Assembly (NCBI GenBank): GCA_019118665.1 | Contig: DWYM01000070.1 | Coordinates: forward strand, 1-41,712 | DNA from: Candidatus Mediterraneibacter intestinipullorum | GTDB lineage: Bacteria > Bacillota > Clostridia > Lachnospirales > Lachnospiraceae | Length of the DNA: 41,712 bases | Direction: 5' to 3' | Part shown: one piece after another, positions 17,554-24,370 of the stretch | Position numbering within the stretch: the first letter of the stretch is position 1 | Layout of the letters: each line of letters begins with the position of its first letter | Translations under genes and position numbers: made by a program | Notes under the pieces: model-generated | Told to the model about the DNA's origin: nothing | The model's database searches: none | Seen by the model: only the letters and a program-made list of their open reading frames with translations

Positions 17554-18807
17554 ATGATAATCAAAAATGGTTTTATCACAGATCCGGCCACCCAGCGAGC
17601 CGGCATATATGATATCCGCATCGAAAACGGACTGATACAGGAGATCGCACCCGATATTCCCGCGGCGGCATCTGAAGAGATATTTGATGCCCATGGGCTG
17701 ACGGTGGCTCCGGGGCTGATTGACACGCATGTACACTTCCGCGATCCCGGCTTCACACACAAAGAAACCCTTCACACCGGAGCTCTATCAGCGGCAAAAG
17801 GCGGGTTTACTTCTGTCATATGCATGGCGAACACTTCACCCATTGTAGACTGCGTGTCCGTGCTGGATGATATCCTCACACGCGCCAGGGCAGAAAAGAT
17901 CCGCATCTATCAGGCCGGATCCGTCTCCCATGGCCTCAAAGGGGAAGAGCTGACAGATATGGATGCGTTAAAGACTGCCGGCGCGTGCGGCTTTACGGAC
18001 GACGGCATCCCTCTCCGCAACGCTGCCTTCTTATACCGGGCCATGGAAAAGGCAAAAGAACTGGACATGCCCATCAGCCTCCACGAAGAAGATCCTTCCT
18101 TCATCAAAAATAATGGAGTCAACCACGGTCCTGTCTCTGAAAAGCTGGGCATCTACGGCTCCCCCTCCATCGCGGAAGAATCTCTTGTGGCAAGAGACTG
18201 TATGCTCGCTCTGCAGTCAGGCGCCCATGTAGTTATCCAGCACATCAGCTCCGGCCGTTCTGTAGAGCTGGTGCGCATGTTCAAGGCGTTGGGTGCGAAC
18301 CTTCACGCAGAAGCCACGCCCCATCACTTCACCCTGACAGATGAAGCAGTCCTCAAATACGGCACGCTGGCCAAGATGAACCCACCTCTGCGCACAGAAA
18401 CTGACCGGCAGGAGATCATACGCGGTCTCGCCGATGGAACGATCGACCTCATCGCAACAGACCACGCCCCTCACAGCCGGGAAGAAAAAGAGCGCTCCAT
18501 CACCGCCGCCCCCAGCGGAATCATCGGCCTGGAGACAGCCCTTGCGCTTGGTATCACCTTCCTCGTACGTCCGGGACACCTGTCCATGATGCAGCTTCTG
18601 GAAAAAATGACCATTAATCCTGCCAGACTGTATCATCTCCCCACAGGACAGATCACAGAAGGCGCCCCCGCGGACCTGGTCCTCTTTGATCCGGGAGAAA
18701 AATGGACGCCTGAGCAGTATGCGTCAAAATCCTCCAACTCACCATTTACCGGATGGGAACTTTACGGAAAGGTCAAAGCTGCGATCTGTGGAGGGCACGT
18801 CGTATAA
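17554..18807 (+). CDS. pyrC: Dihydroorotase
   Basis: A 417-aa amidohydrolase closing carbamoyl-aspartate to dihydroorotate in pyrimidine synthesis. Zinc ligands and substrate residues are visible: D57-T-H59-V-H61-F-R63 at the first beta strand, SLHEEDPS for the next His, HVVIQHISS, and the late IATDHAPHS with the catalytic Asp. The class I length (about 420-430) fits. AGGAGG stands eight bases before the ATG. It stands apart from other pyr genes, behind its own promoter, and faces the structured gap at 18808. Confidence 0.96.
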   Translation: MIIKNGFITDPATQRAGIYDIRIENGLIQEIAPDIPAAASEEIFDAHGLTVAPGLIDTHVHFRDPGFTHKETLHTGALSAAKGGFTSVICMANTSPIVDCVSVLDDILTRARAEKIRIYQAGSVSHGLKGEELTDMDALKTAGACGFTDDGIPLRNAAFLYRAMEKAKELDMPISLHEEDPSFIKNNGVNHGPVSEKLGIYGSPSIAEESLVARDCMLALQSGAHVVIQHISSGRSVELVRMFKALGANLHAEATPHHFTLTDEAVLKYGTLAKMNPPLRTETDRQEIIRGLADGTIDLIATDHAPHSREEKERSITAAPSGIIGLETALALGITFLVRPGHLSMMQLLEKMTINPARLYHLPTGQITEGAPADLVLFDPGEKWTPEQYASKSSNSPFTGWELYGKVKAAICGGHVV

Positions 18808-18844
18808 ATCTGCATTTGCCAGAAGGTTTTTGGCTGGGAAATCC

Positions 18845-19045
18845 TCCGAAACCATCGGAGCGGATTATCTAAGACGTATTCAACTCAGGGGCGCAGGTGG
18901 ATTCGGCTCCGCTCCATGGAACAAGAAAAACTACAGCCCTCTTGCAGAGCCTTTCACGGATGGGGATGTGCGGCTCGGTTCCGTTCCGGAATCCACGCAT
19001 CCCCATCCGCAAATAGGTTTTACAAGAATTATCCGAGGTTTCAGA
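18845..19045 (-). ncRNA. Candidate structured noncoding RNA (unnamed)
   Basis: The gap between the convergent pyrC and hemerythrin genes folds as a nested structure. An outer helix pairs 19032-19045 with 18845-18859 (14 bp, one bulge). A 12-bp hairpin stem CGGATGGGGATG/CATCCCCATCCG spans 18957-19009 with further apical stems. A second inner helix pairs 18944-18951 with 18905-18912. An 8-base perfect complement, 18989-18996 with 18897-18904, could form a pseudoknot. The three wobble positions found read G-U on the minus strand and A-C on the plus strand, which points to minus-strand RNA. TTGACA with TAAATT or TATAAA inside the end of the hemerythrin gene (19112-19139) might be its promoter. 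Size is near that of raiA-type RNAs, but identity is not established. The true ends are unknown. Confidence 0.6.
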
Positions 19046-19083
19046 CACTTCACTCAATCGCAGTTCCCCGACAAATCCAGATG

Positions 19084-19506
19084 TCACAGCCGCTCACTGC
19101 TTTCATGCATGAATTTATACTCTGCCACGGACCTGTCAAAACCTTTGATATGTCTGTACAGCCATTCGATCACGTTTTTATTGACCTGTTCTACGAATGC
19201 ATCAGATGGGCCTTCTTCCTCTTCAAGCATATTATAGAGGTCTTTTACAACAGCCCGCAGTTTTTCATGCTCTTTCTTATGTTCCTTGATACCCGGATAC
19301 CGGATGGACTCCTGAAGCTTTTCCTCCTCACCGAAATGAAATTCCGTGTAGTCTGCCAGATAGTCCAGCGTCTTTACTGACACCAATTTGTCTTTGCTCG
19401 TTTCACAGCTGTCCAGAAGCTTGTTGATCTTGTTGATCAGCTCCTTGTGCTGTGTGTCGATCATCTCATTTCCTGTTACCAGACTTTCATCAAATTCTGC
19501 TCTCAT
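19084..19506 (-). CDS. Bacteriohemerythrin
   Basis: A 140-aa single-domain hemerythrin binding a non-haem diiron site that captures or senses O2. The seven expected ligands are all present: H20, H57, E61, H76, H80, H119 and D124, in DTQH, FHFGEEE, HKKEH and RHIKGFD. The start at 19506 is supported by AAGGAGG nine bases upstream; the longer open frame has none. It follows nudC after 112 bases on the same strand. With the flavodiiron protein it points to oxygen handling in an anaerobe. The structured RNA follows directly downstream. Confidence 0.95.
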   Translation of the reverse strand: MRAEFDESLVTGNEMIDTQHKELINKINKLLDSCETSKDKLVSVKTLDYLADYTEFHFGEEEKLQESIRYPGIKEHKKEHEKLRAVVKDLYNMLEEEEGPSDAFVEQVNKNVIEWLYRHIKGFDRSVAEYKFMHESSERL

Positions 19507-19618
19507 TGTCCATATCCTCCTTCGTTTATGAAATAATAATTTTAAATCATGATCAGCAAGAATGCACTCTATCCGAAACCTTGCTCTTATCTTCCGGATT
19601 TCTGTCTCTCCTGCCGAT

Positions 19619-20455
19619 CTAGACTTCTCCACTTTTAAATTTTATGATCATCTCGTTTGTCAGGCTGTCCCTGGACGGCTCTACCGGGATGTCCTCCCGC
19701 TCAAACCACTCTGCAAGGGCAAGCTCCTCCCAGTCAAGCGTGATTTCATCCTCTCCATCCAGCTCACAGTAGAAGCCCATGAGCAGCGTGTCGCTGAATG
19801 CCCACGGCTGGCTTTTATAGTAACGGATATTCCTGACCTTCAGCCCTACTTCTTCCATCACTTCTCTTGCCACTGTCTCCTCCACGGTCTCTCCGATCTC
19901 GGTAAAGCCCGCCAGAAGCGCGTATTTCTTGTAGGTTCTTCCGGCATACTTTGACATGAGGATGCGGTTTCCGTCTGTCACTCCTATGACGACCGCAGGA
20001 CAGATCTTCGGGAATTCCGTATTATGACATGCACTGCACCTGAGCATCCGTTCCCTGTCATCCCGCACCATCAGTTTTCCGCAGCGGCCGCAGTATTTAT
20101 GGTCCTTGTACCAGTTGTAGAGCTGATATCCTGTAACGCCTGCAAATGCATGATACTGGGGGGCTGCTGTGCGGAAGATTTCCGTGTTCTCCATTGTAAA
20201 ATCTGAGAGCGGCTCCCGGTTGATCTCCTGCACCAGATAATATCGTTCTTCATCAACGGAAAACAGGTATATGTAATCCTCATAAATTTCTTCATTCAGC
20301 TGCTCCAGCTCCCTGAAACGCGGAAATACGATCCCTTCCTGTGTTTTTTTCAAAAGCACTGCATGGTCTTCATAATAGAGCGCATAGCAATCTCCGTTTG
20401 GCGGGATGGGATTATACTGGTTGTGCAGATGCTTCGGCTGTATGTCCTGGATCAT
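19619..20455 (-). CDS. nudC: NAD(H) pyrophosphatase / NAD-cap hydrolase (NudC)
   Basis: A 278-aa Nudix enzyme that splits NADH to NMNH and AMP and removes NAD caps from RNA in characterised members. A four-Cys zinc ribbon (CGRC...CSAC) precedes the Nudix box [23 protein letters not shown]-type signature, and the [14 protein letters not shown] motif that defines the NudC subgroup follows it. The ATG overlaps the smpB stop by 4 bp, giving a coupled operon secG-rnr-smpB-nudC. Confidence 0.94.
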
Positions 20456-20916
20456 CGCAGTCTCTCCTTAAATTCTCTTTGCGCTTCCCGCCTCTGGTCC
20501 TTCCTGGCAATATCATCCCGCTTGTCGTAAAGTTTCTTTCCTTTTGCAAGACCGATTTCCAGCTTCACAAGGCTTCCGCTGAAATACACCTGGAGCGGCA
20601 CCACTGTAATGCCCTGCTCCTTCATCTTTCCGAAGATCTTATTGATCTCCTTTTTGTGAAGGAGCAGCTTCCTCACCCGCAGGGGATCCTTGTTGAATAT
20701 ATTTCCTTTCTCATAGGGTGAAATATGCATGCCGTAGATATACATTTCGCCGGACTCCACCCGGATGAACGCCTCCTTAATACTGCACTTCCCCATACGC
20801 AGGGATTTGACCTCCGTGCCATGGAGCACAATCCCAGCCTCATATTTCTCAAGGATAAAATAATCATGATATGCTTTTTTGTCGTTGGCGATCAATTTTG
20901 TCTCTGCCCTTGCCAT
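20452..20916 (-). CDS. smpB: tmRNA-binding protein SmpB
   Basis: A 154-aa protein that carries tmRNA into stalled ribosomes for trans-translation. Typical features are [28 protein letters not shown], the KLLLHKKEI segment, [12 protein letters not shown]-like core and the basic tail [17 protein letters not shown]. The start at 20916 sits just after GAGGAGAGAGG; nine extra upstream codons are not supported. It lies ten bases after rnr. The tmRNA gene itself is not seen in this window. Confidence 0.96.
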
Positions 20917-20926
20917 ACCTCTCTCC

Positions 20927-23041
20927 TCAGTCCATGATCTCAAAATTCACTGTCCGCTGCACTTTATCCGCATCCGACACACGCACTCTGACCGTCTGCC
21001 CGAGTTTGTACGTCTTTCCGGTGTGCTCTCCCGCCAGTTCATAGCTCTGCTCAATGAACTCATAATGATCATCCCACATATCCGCCACATGCACAAGCCC
21101 TTCCACAGTATTGGGAAGCTCCACATATATCCCCCACCGGGTCACACCTGATATCACGCCCTCGTACTCTTCCCCGATGTGAGCTCTCATATATTCCGCC
21201 TTCTTCAGCTTCACGACCTCCCGCTCCGCCTCCTCGGCAGTCCGCTCTTTCGTGCTGCACTGTACGGCCGCCCCGGGAAGGATCTCCGCATAATGAGAAA
21301 CCCTGTCCTCGTTCAGCCTTCCCCGGAGATTCTCCTTGATGATCCTGTGGATCTGCAGATCCGGGTACCTCCGGATCGGGGAAGTAAAATGGGTATAGTA
21401 TTTCGCAGCCAGACCAAAATGCCCTGTATTCTCGGTGGAATAGCGAGCCTGCTTCATGGAGCGCAGCGCCAGGCGGCTGATCAGCGCCTCCTCCGGCGTA
21501 CCGTCCACTTTGCCGAGTAGCTTCTGGATCTCCTTGGGACGCACTTCGTTGCGCACATGGATATGATACCCGAAATTATTGATAAATGTCGAGAGCTGCC
21601 TTATTTTCTCTTCATCCGGCGTGTCATGGGTGCGGTAGAGGAAGGGCACGTCCCTCCAGAAATATTCTTCCGCCACAGTTTCATTTGCCATGAGCATAAA
21701 GTCTTCTATGATCTTTGTCGCCGCATTCCGCTCATAAGGTCTGAGTTCCACCGGTCTGCCGGTTTCATCCAGCACGATCTTCGTCTCAGAGAAATCAAAA
21801 TCAATGGAGCCCCTTCTGCCCCTTCTCTCCCGCAGAATGTCGGAAAGCTCTTTCATCTGCCGGAGCATGGGAACGACCTCCTTATTTTTACGGATAGCTT
21901 CTTCGTCCCCATCCAGTATTTTCGCCACCCCATTATAGCTCATCCTTTTATCCACGCAGATCACTGTCTCCGCAATCTCATGATCCATCATCTCTCCTGA
22001 CGGACTGATCGTCATGATACAGGAAAGGGCCAGTCTGTCCTCCCCGGCATTCAGGGAGCAGCTCCCATTTGAGAGAACGTGGGGAAGCATGGGGATCACC
22101 CGGTCTGCCAGGTACACGCTCGTCCCCCGCTCATAAGCCTCCTTGTCCAAGGCGCTCCTTTCCTGCACATAGTTTGCCACATCCGCGATATGCACGCCCA
22201 GCCGGTAATTCTCTCCTTCTCTTGTAACCGACACGGCGTCATCCAGATCTTTTGCGTCTTCGCCGTCTATGGTCACCATCTGCCAGTTCCGCAGATCAAT
22301 CCTCCCCGCGCGGTCACCATCACTGACCGGCTTTCCCACGCGAACCGCCTGGTTGAGCACTTTCTCAGGAAATTCTGTCTTTATCCCCATGTCCATCACG
22401 ATCGAGAGGATGTCTGTCCCCGGGTCATTGATATGTCCGATGATTTCCGCGACTCTTCCTTCCGGCTTCATGTGCTCCCCGCCGTAAGAAAGCAGCTCCA
22501 CAACGACCTTATGGCCTGTCATAGCGCCCCCTTCCTTTCCCGCCGGGATATAGATATCCTTTAGGTATCTCTGATTGTCCGGGCGGACAAATCCAAAGTC
22601 CCTGCATTTCTCATACAGGCCGACTATCCGCGTCACGCTGTGGGAAAGAACGCGCACGATCTTCCCCTCCATGCGCCTTCTCAGGGGCGCGGCGGTAATG
22701 ATATATTCCACCTCATCTCCCTGGAATGCGCCGCAGAGATTTTCTTCAGGAATAAACACGTCATCCCCGCCGCTCTCCGGAGATACAAAGCCGAACCCTC
22801 TCGCATTGGCCTGAAAAATGCCTTTTAAATGCTCCGCATGACCTCTGCTGTATTTGCCTCTTTTTGAGAGGGCGATCTTCCCCTCCTCCACGAGAGCGTC
22901 CAGGACCTCTTTCAGCGCATCTCTCTGTTCTCTCGGGATCTGTAGGACAGCCGAGATCTCTTTTATCTTCATCGGCACATACAGGTCATCACTGATAAAA
23001 TCAAAGATGACCTTTTTTCGTTTCTCAAATGTCTGATCCAT
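20927..23041 (-). CDS. rnr: Ribonuclease R
   Basis: A 704-aa 3'-5' exoribonuclease that degrades structured RNA and helps decay mRNA during trans-translation. Order: a winged-helix-like N-terminus, a cold-shock domain (FGFVSPE), the RNB catalytic domain with the Asp cluster in [12 protein letters not shown] and HIADVANYV, and a C-terminal S1 domain ([25 protein letters not shown]). GGGGAG stands seven bases before the ATG at 23041; fifteen upstream codons are rejected. It is the classic partner of smpB, and secG precedes it. Confidence 0.96.
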
Positions 23042-23186
23042 AGTTCTCTCCCCGCCGCGTACGGCTGCCCCAAATACACACGGCACTTTCCCAGATATAC
23101 ACAGCCATATATAAATAATATAAGCACCCTATACCATTATAGAGTGCTTACGTTAATCATTATCTTCTGATATAGTAATTTTCATA

Positions 23187-24299: not shown

Positions 24300-24370
24300 A
24301 GCGGGTGATGGGAATCGAACCCACGTATCCAGCTTGGAAGGCTGGTGTTCTACCATTGAACTACACCCGC
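24300..24370 (-). tRNA. tRNA-Gly (anticodon TCC), second copy
   Basis: Identical to the tRNA at 206-276, same strand, with no encoded CCA. It stands alone between xpt and the CmpB-type membrane gene, with a poly-T tract (minus strand) directly after the discriminator base that may end its transcript. Confidence 0.95.

Follow-up and report, generated by a model that had tools for sequence, protein, structure and literature searches.

What occupies the gap between two convergent genes when nearly the whole of that gap can fold back upon itself? The window, as we call the whole stretch of 41,712 nucleotides analysed here from Candidatus Mediterraneibacter intestinipullorum, holds pyrC on the plus strand (17554..18807, stop TAA at 18805-18807), encoding a dihydroorotase with Amidohydro_1 and DHOase domains, and facing it a hemerythrin-domain gene (Hemerythrin, PF01814) on the minus strand (19084..19506, stop TGA at 19086-19084). 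NUDIX, smpB and rnr-type genes follow in a row upstream of the latter, on the same strand (19619-23086). The original prediction placed between pyrC and the hemerythrin gene a structured RNA of nested helices, read from the minus strand and resembling raiA-type RNAs. The stretch looks instead like a reduced copy of a large palindromic DNA element that gut bacteria of the genus Mediterraneibacter carry many times over, often directly against the stop codons of genes.

The structure as such is partly borne out. Folded over 343 nt, the minus strand beats its shuffled versions with a z of -3.84 (0 of 100 shuffles as good), and the plus strand does so as well (z -2.87, 1 of 100). All four predicted helices were found in place by base complementarity, but their support from folding is weaker. 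The central hairpin (18957..19009, minus strand) is the firmest, with 12 perfect pairs (18957-18968 with 18998-19009) that are present in both minimum-energy folds tested and extend to 17 pairs, 15 of them Watson-Crick. The stretch 18845..19045 (minus strand) is closed by an outer helix of 14 pairs with a one-base bulge (18845-18859 with 19032-19045), which forms when the element is folded alone (14/14 bases) but is missing from the 343-nt fold (0/14). The second helix (18905-18912 with 18944-18951) has Watson-Crick pairs at seven of its eight positions but appears in neither minimum-energy fold, and the candidate pseudoknot complement (18897-18904 with 18989-18996) consists of 8 perfect pairs of a kind that the fold programs used cannot score. 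As context for such short 8-base complements, 17 inverted pairs are listed in the 501 bases around the stretch. The further claim that wobbles read G-U on the minus strand only breaks down at one position, where the hairpin extension holds a plus-strand G-T pair beside a minus-strand G-U pair; a strand argument from three wobbles is weak.

The original prediction had looked to homologues, and BLASTN found them both in the own genome and in genomes of the genus. With the gap (18808-19083) as query, the own genome gave 21 matches (E up to 1, itself included); at E up to 0.001, 9 of 61 genomes matched, the own among them, and all nine belong to one genus, Mediterraneibacter to go by named orthologues of the hemerythrin gene. 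A full-length own-genome copy, L012, matches 20 of 58 genus genomes (E up to 1e-6). Of 397 genomes of the family, two matched the composite copy L196, namely the own genome and another of its genus, in a search by DNA similarity only that diverged relatives elsewhere could escape. Among possible mobile carriers, 72,556 plasmid records and 50,697 phage records gave no match to the composite; viral contigs scanned for the pattern contained 73 stretches with a single exact match each, which may be chance. With up to one mismatch, the end core described below occurs at 107, 187 and 128 sites in genomes G000, G062 and G010, against 12, 8 and 12 for a control pattern written backwards. As far as DNA similarity can tell, the family is thus seen to be dispersed, apparently non-coding and present in one genus only. 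A literature search with most subscription journals outside its scope returned no published account of it among the matches listed.

Terminal inverted repeats, AAATCTGNATTTG and the inverse form CAAATNCAGATTT, delimit the copies, and each of these ends is itself near-palindromic over 12-13 bp. In the relative G062, the full unit measures ~957 bp and consists of two imperfect palindromes of ~355 bp, T1 and T2, around a spacer of ~247 bp. This order of T1, spacer and T2 recurred in 13/13 fetched units of ~950 bp from that genome, where pairs of ends are found repeatedly some 950 and 350 bp apart. The corresponding parts of L196 measure 362, 247 and 352 bp, and the spacer only 81-88 bp in three own-genome composites. 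Folding of 15 copies gave -46.6 kcal/mol for a 151-bp short form, -111.6 for the window copy and -154 to -201 for the others. With a GC content of 0.509 in the window copy and 0.537 in L196, against 0.493 for the window, the elements are not AT-rich. A shared long open reading frame is absent across 13 composites, the longest frames (69-151 codons) varying in place and strand. Some units have TA on both sides and others lack it on one, leaving no clear target duplication, and no clean empty site with a known ancestor was found. At L405 (G000) and L407 (G010), a small hairpin stands at the stop where G062 has a composite, with the short form AATCTT...CAGATT in G000; apart from its element-like ends, this short form looks like a plain terminator, and it may be either an ancestor or a remnant.

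Seen against this anatomy, the window copy is an internally shortened member of the family, 277 bp in length (18807..19083, minus strand), its ends located and its multiple copies found by own-genome BLASTN. The left end, AATCTGCATTTG (18807..18818, plus strand), matches the end pattern exactly and overlaps the pyrC stop codon by one base, 18807, which closes that codon and opens the end; the stop at +1 of this end closes an open frame of 423 codons. The right end, CATCTGGATTTG (19072..19083, minus strand), carries one mismatch to the pattern and directly adjoins the hemerythrin stop codon. Both edges therefore touch stop codons, and the gap is filled by the element alone. A T1-type outer arm (18806..18933, minus strand) shares 71.9-74.4% identity with three own-genome T1 copies and 72.4%, over a shorter stretch, with the T1 of G062. 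Next to it, a T2-type hairpin with a shortened tip (18957..19021, minus strand) is 80% identical over 40 nt to the T2 of L017, parts of it reaching 88% identity to a copy in G014 and 86% to one in G010. The outer arm on the hemerythrin side (18989..19082, minus strand) is 68% identical to the reversed outer arm of the T1 copy L013. Judged by these identities, the window copy combines the two palindromes in shortened form, a T2-type hairpin being joined to a T1 outer arm, and is probably a deletion product.

Contact with stop codons is a habit of the family. We counted an edge as flush when an open frame of 80 codons or more has its stop between -3 and +2 relative to the end of the element. By this measure 26 of the 40 edges are flush in 20 units of G062, which were selected among the listed end pairs, and both edges are flush in 8/20 units. 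When the edges were shifted outward by 60-480 bp, a control that falls mostly inside genes and not at random places within intergenic gaps, stops were flush at 7/880. The own genome has 8/16 flush edges, a twice-entered locus being dropped. Many element edges read TA followed by AATCTG. The stop codons at the element ends look native, to go by the encoded C-termini, since the hemerythrin end is mostly unchanged with or without an element (...SSERL in most genus loci, NEKL in L147 and L151) and that of the deacetylase gene of L229 shifts by a few residues at most.

The same gene ends are occupied in sister species. We sought 18 flush gene ends of G062, from 16 units, in the sisters G030, G077 and G078 and obtained 44 matches, one of them at a contig end. 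Among the 43 that could be judged by eye, an element end adjoins the corresponding stop at 41 orthologous gene ends, including three reduced forms (L228R in G078, where the end stands alone, L243R in G078, a 51-bp form, and L230R in G077, a shortened copy); none was seen at L232R in G078 and L244L in G077. The contents of the sites do not follow suit. At 16 of the 18 ends, the other half (T1 for T2 or the reverse) faces the gene in at least one species, a count that becomes 14/18 when scores of 100 bits or more are required. Among 48 copies of 250 nt or more, 45 had a match, and the nearest relative among the sampled copies was the orthologue for 8, a copy of the same genome for 19 and a paralogue of another genome for 18 (8, 19 and 17 without one copy that had no orthologue in the set).

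In genomes less closely related, fewer of the sites are occupied. A search for these gene ends in G000, G010 and G076 gave 37 matches, and by eye, with remnants and diverged ends counted, 9/12, 7/12 and 7/13 were occupied. The gap between pyrC and the hemerythrin gene itself varies in length: G000 has 276 bp and G062 968 bp, G010 has 680 bp and turns T1 towards the hemerythrin gene, and G077 has no more than 9 bp (AATCCGGAT). At L144 and L091 of G077, only AATCCGGAT separates the convergent genes, and TAAAATCCGGATTTA spans both stop codons. The G077 gap is a candidate empty site or excision scar. L401 in G000 has a single 12-bp core; the corresponding place holds a 51-bp form in G078 and a longer copy in G062. 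A solo-core pattern, TAAATCNNGATTTA, occurs in 12/58 genomes, against 1/58 for the reversed control; because several of its matches are ends of elements, only L401 and the G077 gap remain as candidates for a scar or an empty site. In species with diverged ends (ATTCG.., ATTTCGATTTTTCG and similar forms), the sequence at the same stops looks element-related by eye, at L111, L112, L118, L119, L132, L253, L255, L262, L270, L412 and L424, which suggests that the sites are older than the AATCTG-type ends.

The palindromes have been kept foldable. Covariation of the helices, another expectation attached to the original prediction, was found at the level of the family: RNAalifold predicts 85 pairs on 26 T1 copies, 42 of them with at least one compensatory change, and the alignment shows the predicted pairing of the arms to be kept through such changes. 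Covariation alone does not show an RNA, because arm-to-arm correction of palindromic DNA could also keep pairing. On the question of strand, a first count over all self-alignment columns of 91 copies, some of them present in both orientations, gave 418/364 G-U versus A-C for T1 and 263/226 for T2, hence little or no bias. In a later test restricted to well-paired columns, picked regardless of strand, G-U-only stood to A-C-only columns as 33/18 in T1 (p 0.049) and 21/10 in T2 (p 0.071), or 54/28 column pairs when pooled (p 0.005), the copies being related and the p values a guide only. The strand with the G-U excess runs from the spacer to the outer end (T1/T2 forward) and is the minus strand in the window; forward folds are the more stable in 22/26 T1 and 15/17 T2 copies. 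The excess is modest, and a strand bias of mutation would leave the same trace.

We therefore read the window copy, with a probability of roughly 0.7, as a decayed copy of a dispersed family of long palindromes at gene 3' ends, in which the contents of the sites have been exchanged since an ancestral entry and which likely serves as a 3'-end barrier or terminator. The elements would have entered gene 3' ends in the ancestor of the clade, and copies may since have been exchanged or inverted between fixed sites, either by recombination at their ends or by gene conversion. As the element fills the whole convergent gap, it would have to stop or tolerate transcripts arriving from both the pyrC and the hemerythrin side, and a two-way 3'-end hairpin barrier or terminator is its most likely role. 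A simple consensus scan of the window stretch and of L196 saw no strong intrinsic terminator, giving one weak terminator-like site in the former (shuffle mean 0.4) and one in the latter (shuffle mean 1.8). The G-U excess strand points outward from the spacer, opposite to read-through from the flanking genes, and counts against selection for 3'-UTR hairpins, for which the read-through strand would be expected.

How such elements could have spread calls for comparison with mobile sequences, and neither the end-pair spacing in G062 nor the flanks of Y1 genes identified an enzyme moving the family. A classical MITE is possible, if doubtful: a DDE transposase acting in trans would insert the element at TA with duplication, and TAA stops would be hit since TA followed by A restores the stop. 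The terminal inverted repeats, the want of a long open frame common to 13 composites and the many edges reading TA before AATCTG agree with this, TA ends being typical of bacterial MITEs according to the review PMC2229807. However, the other edge lacks TA at the one-sided flush units L230, L233, L235, L241, L243 and L244, and a single TA insertion leaves unexplained the units flush on both sides (8/20). Moreover, no end pair much above 961 bp is clear by eye among the listed exact G062 end sites, one-mismatch sites being only partly covered.

It is unlikely that the family is a giant relative of REP/BIME sequences moved by a Y1 (RAYT-like) transposase, an enzyme that would account for hairpin recognition, for the missing target duplication and for the position at gene ends. 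A Y1_Tnp match exists in 49/58 genus genomes, with many frames of about 245-310 aa, and the Y1 frames read have HFH or HVH motifs; these genes are putatively RAYT-like. REP sequences with GTAG ends, moreover, often give a TAG stop to flanking open reading frames, according to PMC3733652. Against this, 0/18 fetched Y1 loci (17 of the longer type and one plain IS200-type, with about 1.3 kb or less on each side) show similarity nearby to seven T1, T2 and spacer sequences, and by eye 14/18 have GGGAC-type palindromic repeats instead. The element ends carry, by eye, neither a GTAG nor a CGTC tag, and the units are about ten times the size of REPs. G078, in an assembly of about 310 pieces, has many copies and no Y1 match. 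As for the Y1 genes themselves, L450 (1316-2116, G000:C42) exemplifies a type, mostly of 261-274 aa with HFH, that lies beside palindromic repeats of the GGGACGTAGT / ACTACGTCCC type; L451, L453, L454, L457-L464, L466 and L467 are like it, and L452, L455 and L456 have a second Y1 type (HVH) with other flanks.

Equally conjectural is an extension in which the fixed stop-codon sites would be docking places for exchangeable hairpin cassettes, swapped, inverted or lost at the core AAATCYRGATTT, and the two halves would encode outward-read hairpin RNAs of ~350 nt. The near-palindromic core would then be the exchange site, loss would leave one core behind (L401 and the 9-bp gap of G077 are perhaps such cases), and the excess of G-U over A-C could be the trace of a hairpin RNA read outward from each half. 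We hold this to be improbable.

Less credible still, and in our judgement very improbable, is a functional structured RNA of this locus, of raiA type or of a new class, transcribed from the minus strand. The raiA motif RNA is a structured RNA of about 200 nt in Firmicutes, and the stretch is like it in size and structure but has no covariance-model match: cmscan of 17800-20200 with E up to 5 found no raiA (RF03072), only mir-674 (22.6 bits, cut-off 93) and snoZ188 (17.2 bits, cut-off 50). At the gathering score, the whole window yielded four tRNAs only, with no raiA and no other Rfam family; two tRNA-Gly(TCC) genes have equal Rfam scores, one at 206-276 within a tRNA cluster (84-358) and the other, at 24300-24370, alone and 24 kb off. 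The family copies gave six matches of miRNA-precursor type, all far below the cut-offs (the best being MIR1858, E 0.00019, 41.1 bits, cut-off 137), which look like plain long hairpins. The candidate raiA and other Rfam RNAs were accordingly rejected. So was a lone RNA gene, the same sequence type being scattered over the chromosome, often flush with the stops of different genes. What remains of the RNA proposal is the folding (z -3.84), the homologues, the family covariation and the modest G-U excess on the strand that reads T1/T2 forward, in the window the minus strand; what falls is the single RNA gene and membership in raiA. Multiple copies, variable content, a shortened copy and an orthologous gap that shrinks from 968 and 680 bp in G062 and G010 to only 9 in G077 all speak against it. 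An ordinary bidirectional terminator, suggested by the position between convergent stops and by the simple hairpin that, by eye, follows the stop in several element-free orthologues, has the least chance of all, as the own-genome BLASTN copies disfavour it and homology dispersed with common ends over >100 sites per genome is unlike independent terminators.

The nearest known kinds are BOX/RUP/SPRITE, REP/BIME and MITEs. Like the family described here, BOX, RUP and SPRITE are dispersed, structured and non-autonomous; in Streptococcus pneumoniae, 36 genes have their extreme 3' end and stop codon within a BOX repeat, with no strong evidence of truncation, and SPRITE is enriched near the 3' ends of convergent genes, as PMC3049150 reports. 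Compared by description only, BOX differs in its boxA/boxB/boxC modules from the two ~355-bp palindromes around a spacer, and the present family adds flush placement on both sides in 8/20 units and shared sites with differing contents. REP/BIME sequences are likewise palindromic, extragenic, located at gene ends and able to supply stop codons, but they measure 20-40 bp and bear GTAG/CGTC tags (PMC3733652), whereas the present palindromes reach ~355 bp and have AAATCTG ends; the Y1 genes examined, unlike RAYT genes with their REPs, are not flanked by the family. MITEs such as Correia/NEMIS, ERIC/RU-1 and YPAL/RU-2 are similarly non-coding, with terminal inverted repeats and strong secondary structure (PMC2229807), and differ from the family here, which is larger (~957 bp), has a GC content of 0.51-0.54, is not AT-rich and shows no clear target duplication.

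Dispersed palindromes at gene ends, some of them supplying stops, are already in print (PMC3049150, PMC3733652). The unusual aspect lies in the combination: the palindromes are very long, their ends stand exactly at native stops on one or both sides, and sister species share the positions while the contents fail to track the species. One such copy, met alone, is easily misread as a new RNA class, and caution is warranted on that account. Both the flush placement without clear target duplication and the exchange between sites are open to testing in an isolate. By extrapolation from the counts of end sites and flush edges, perhaps a hundred genes may have 3' ends shaped by these hairpins.
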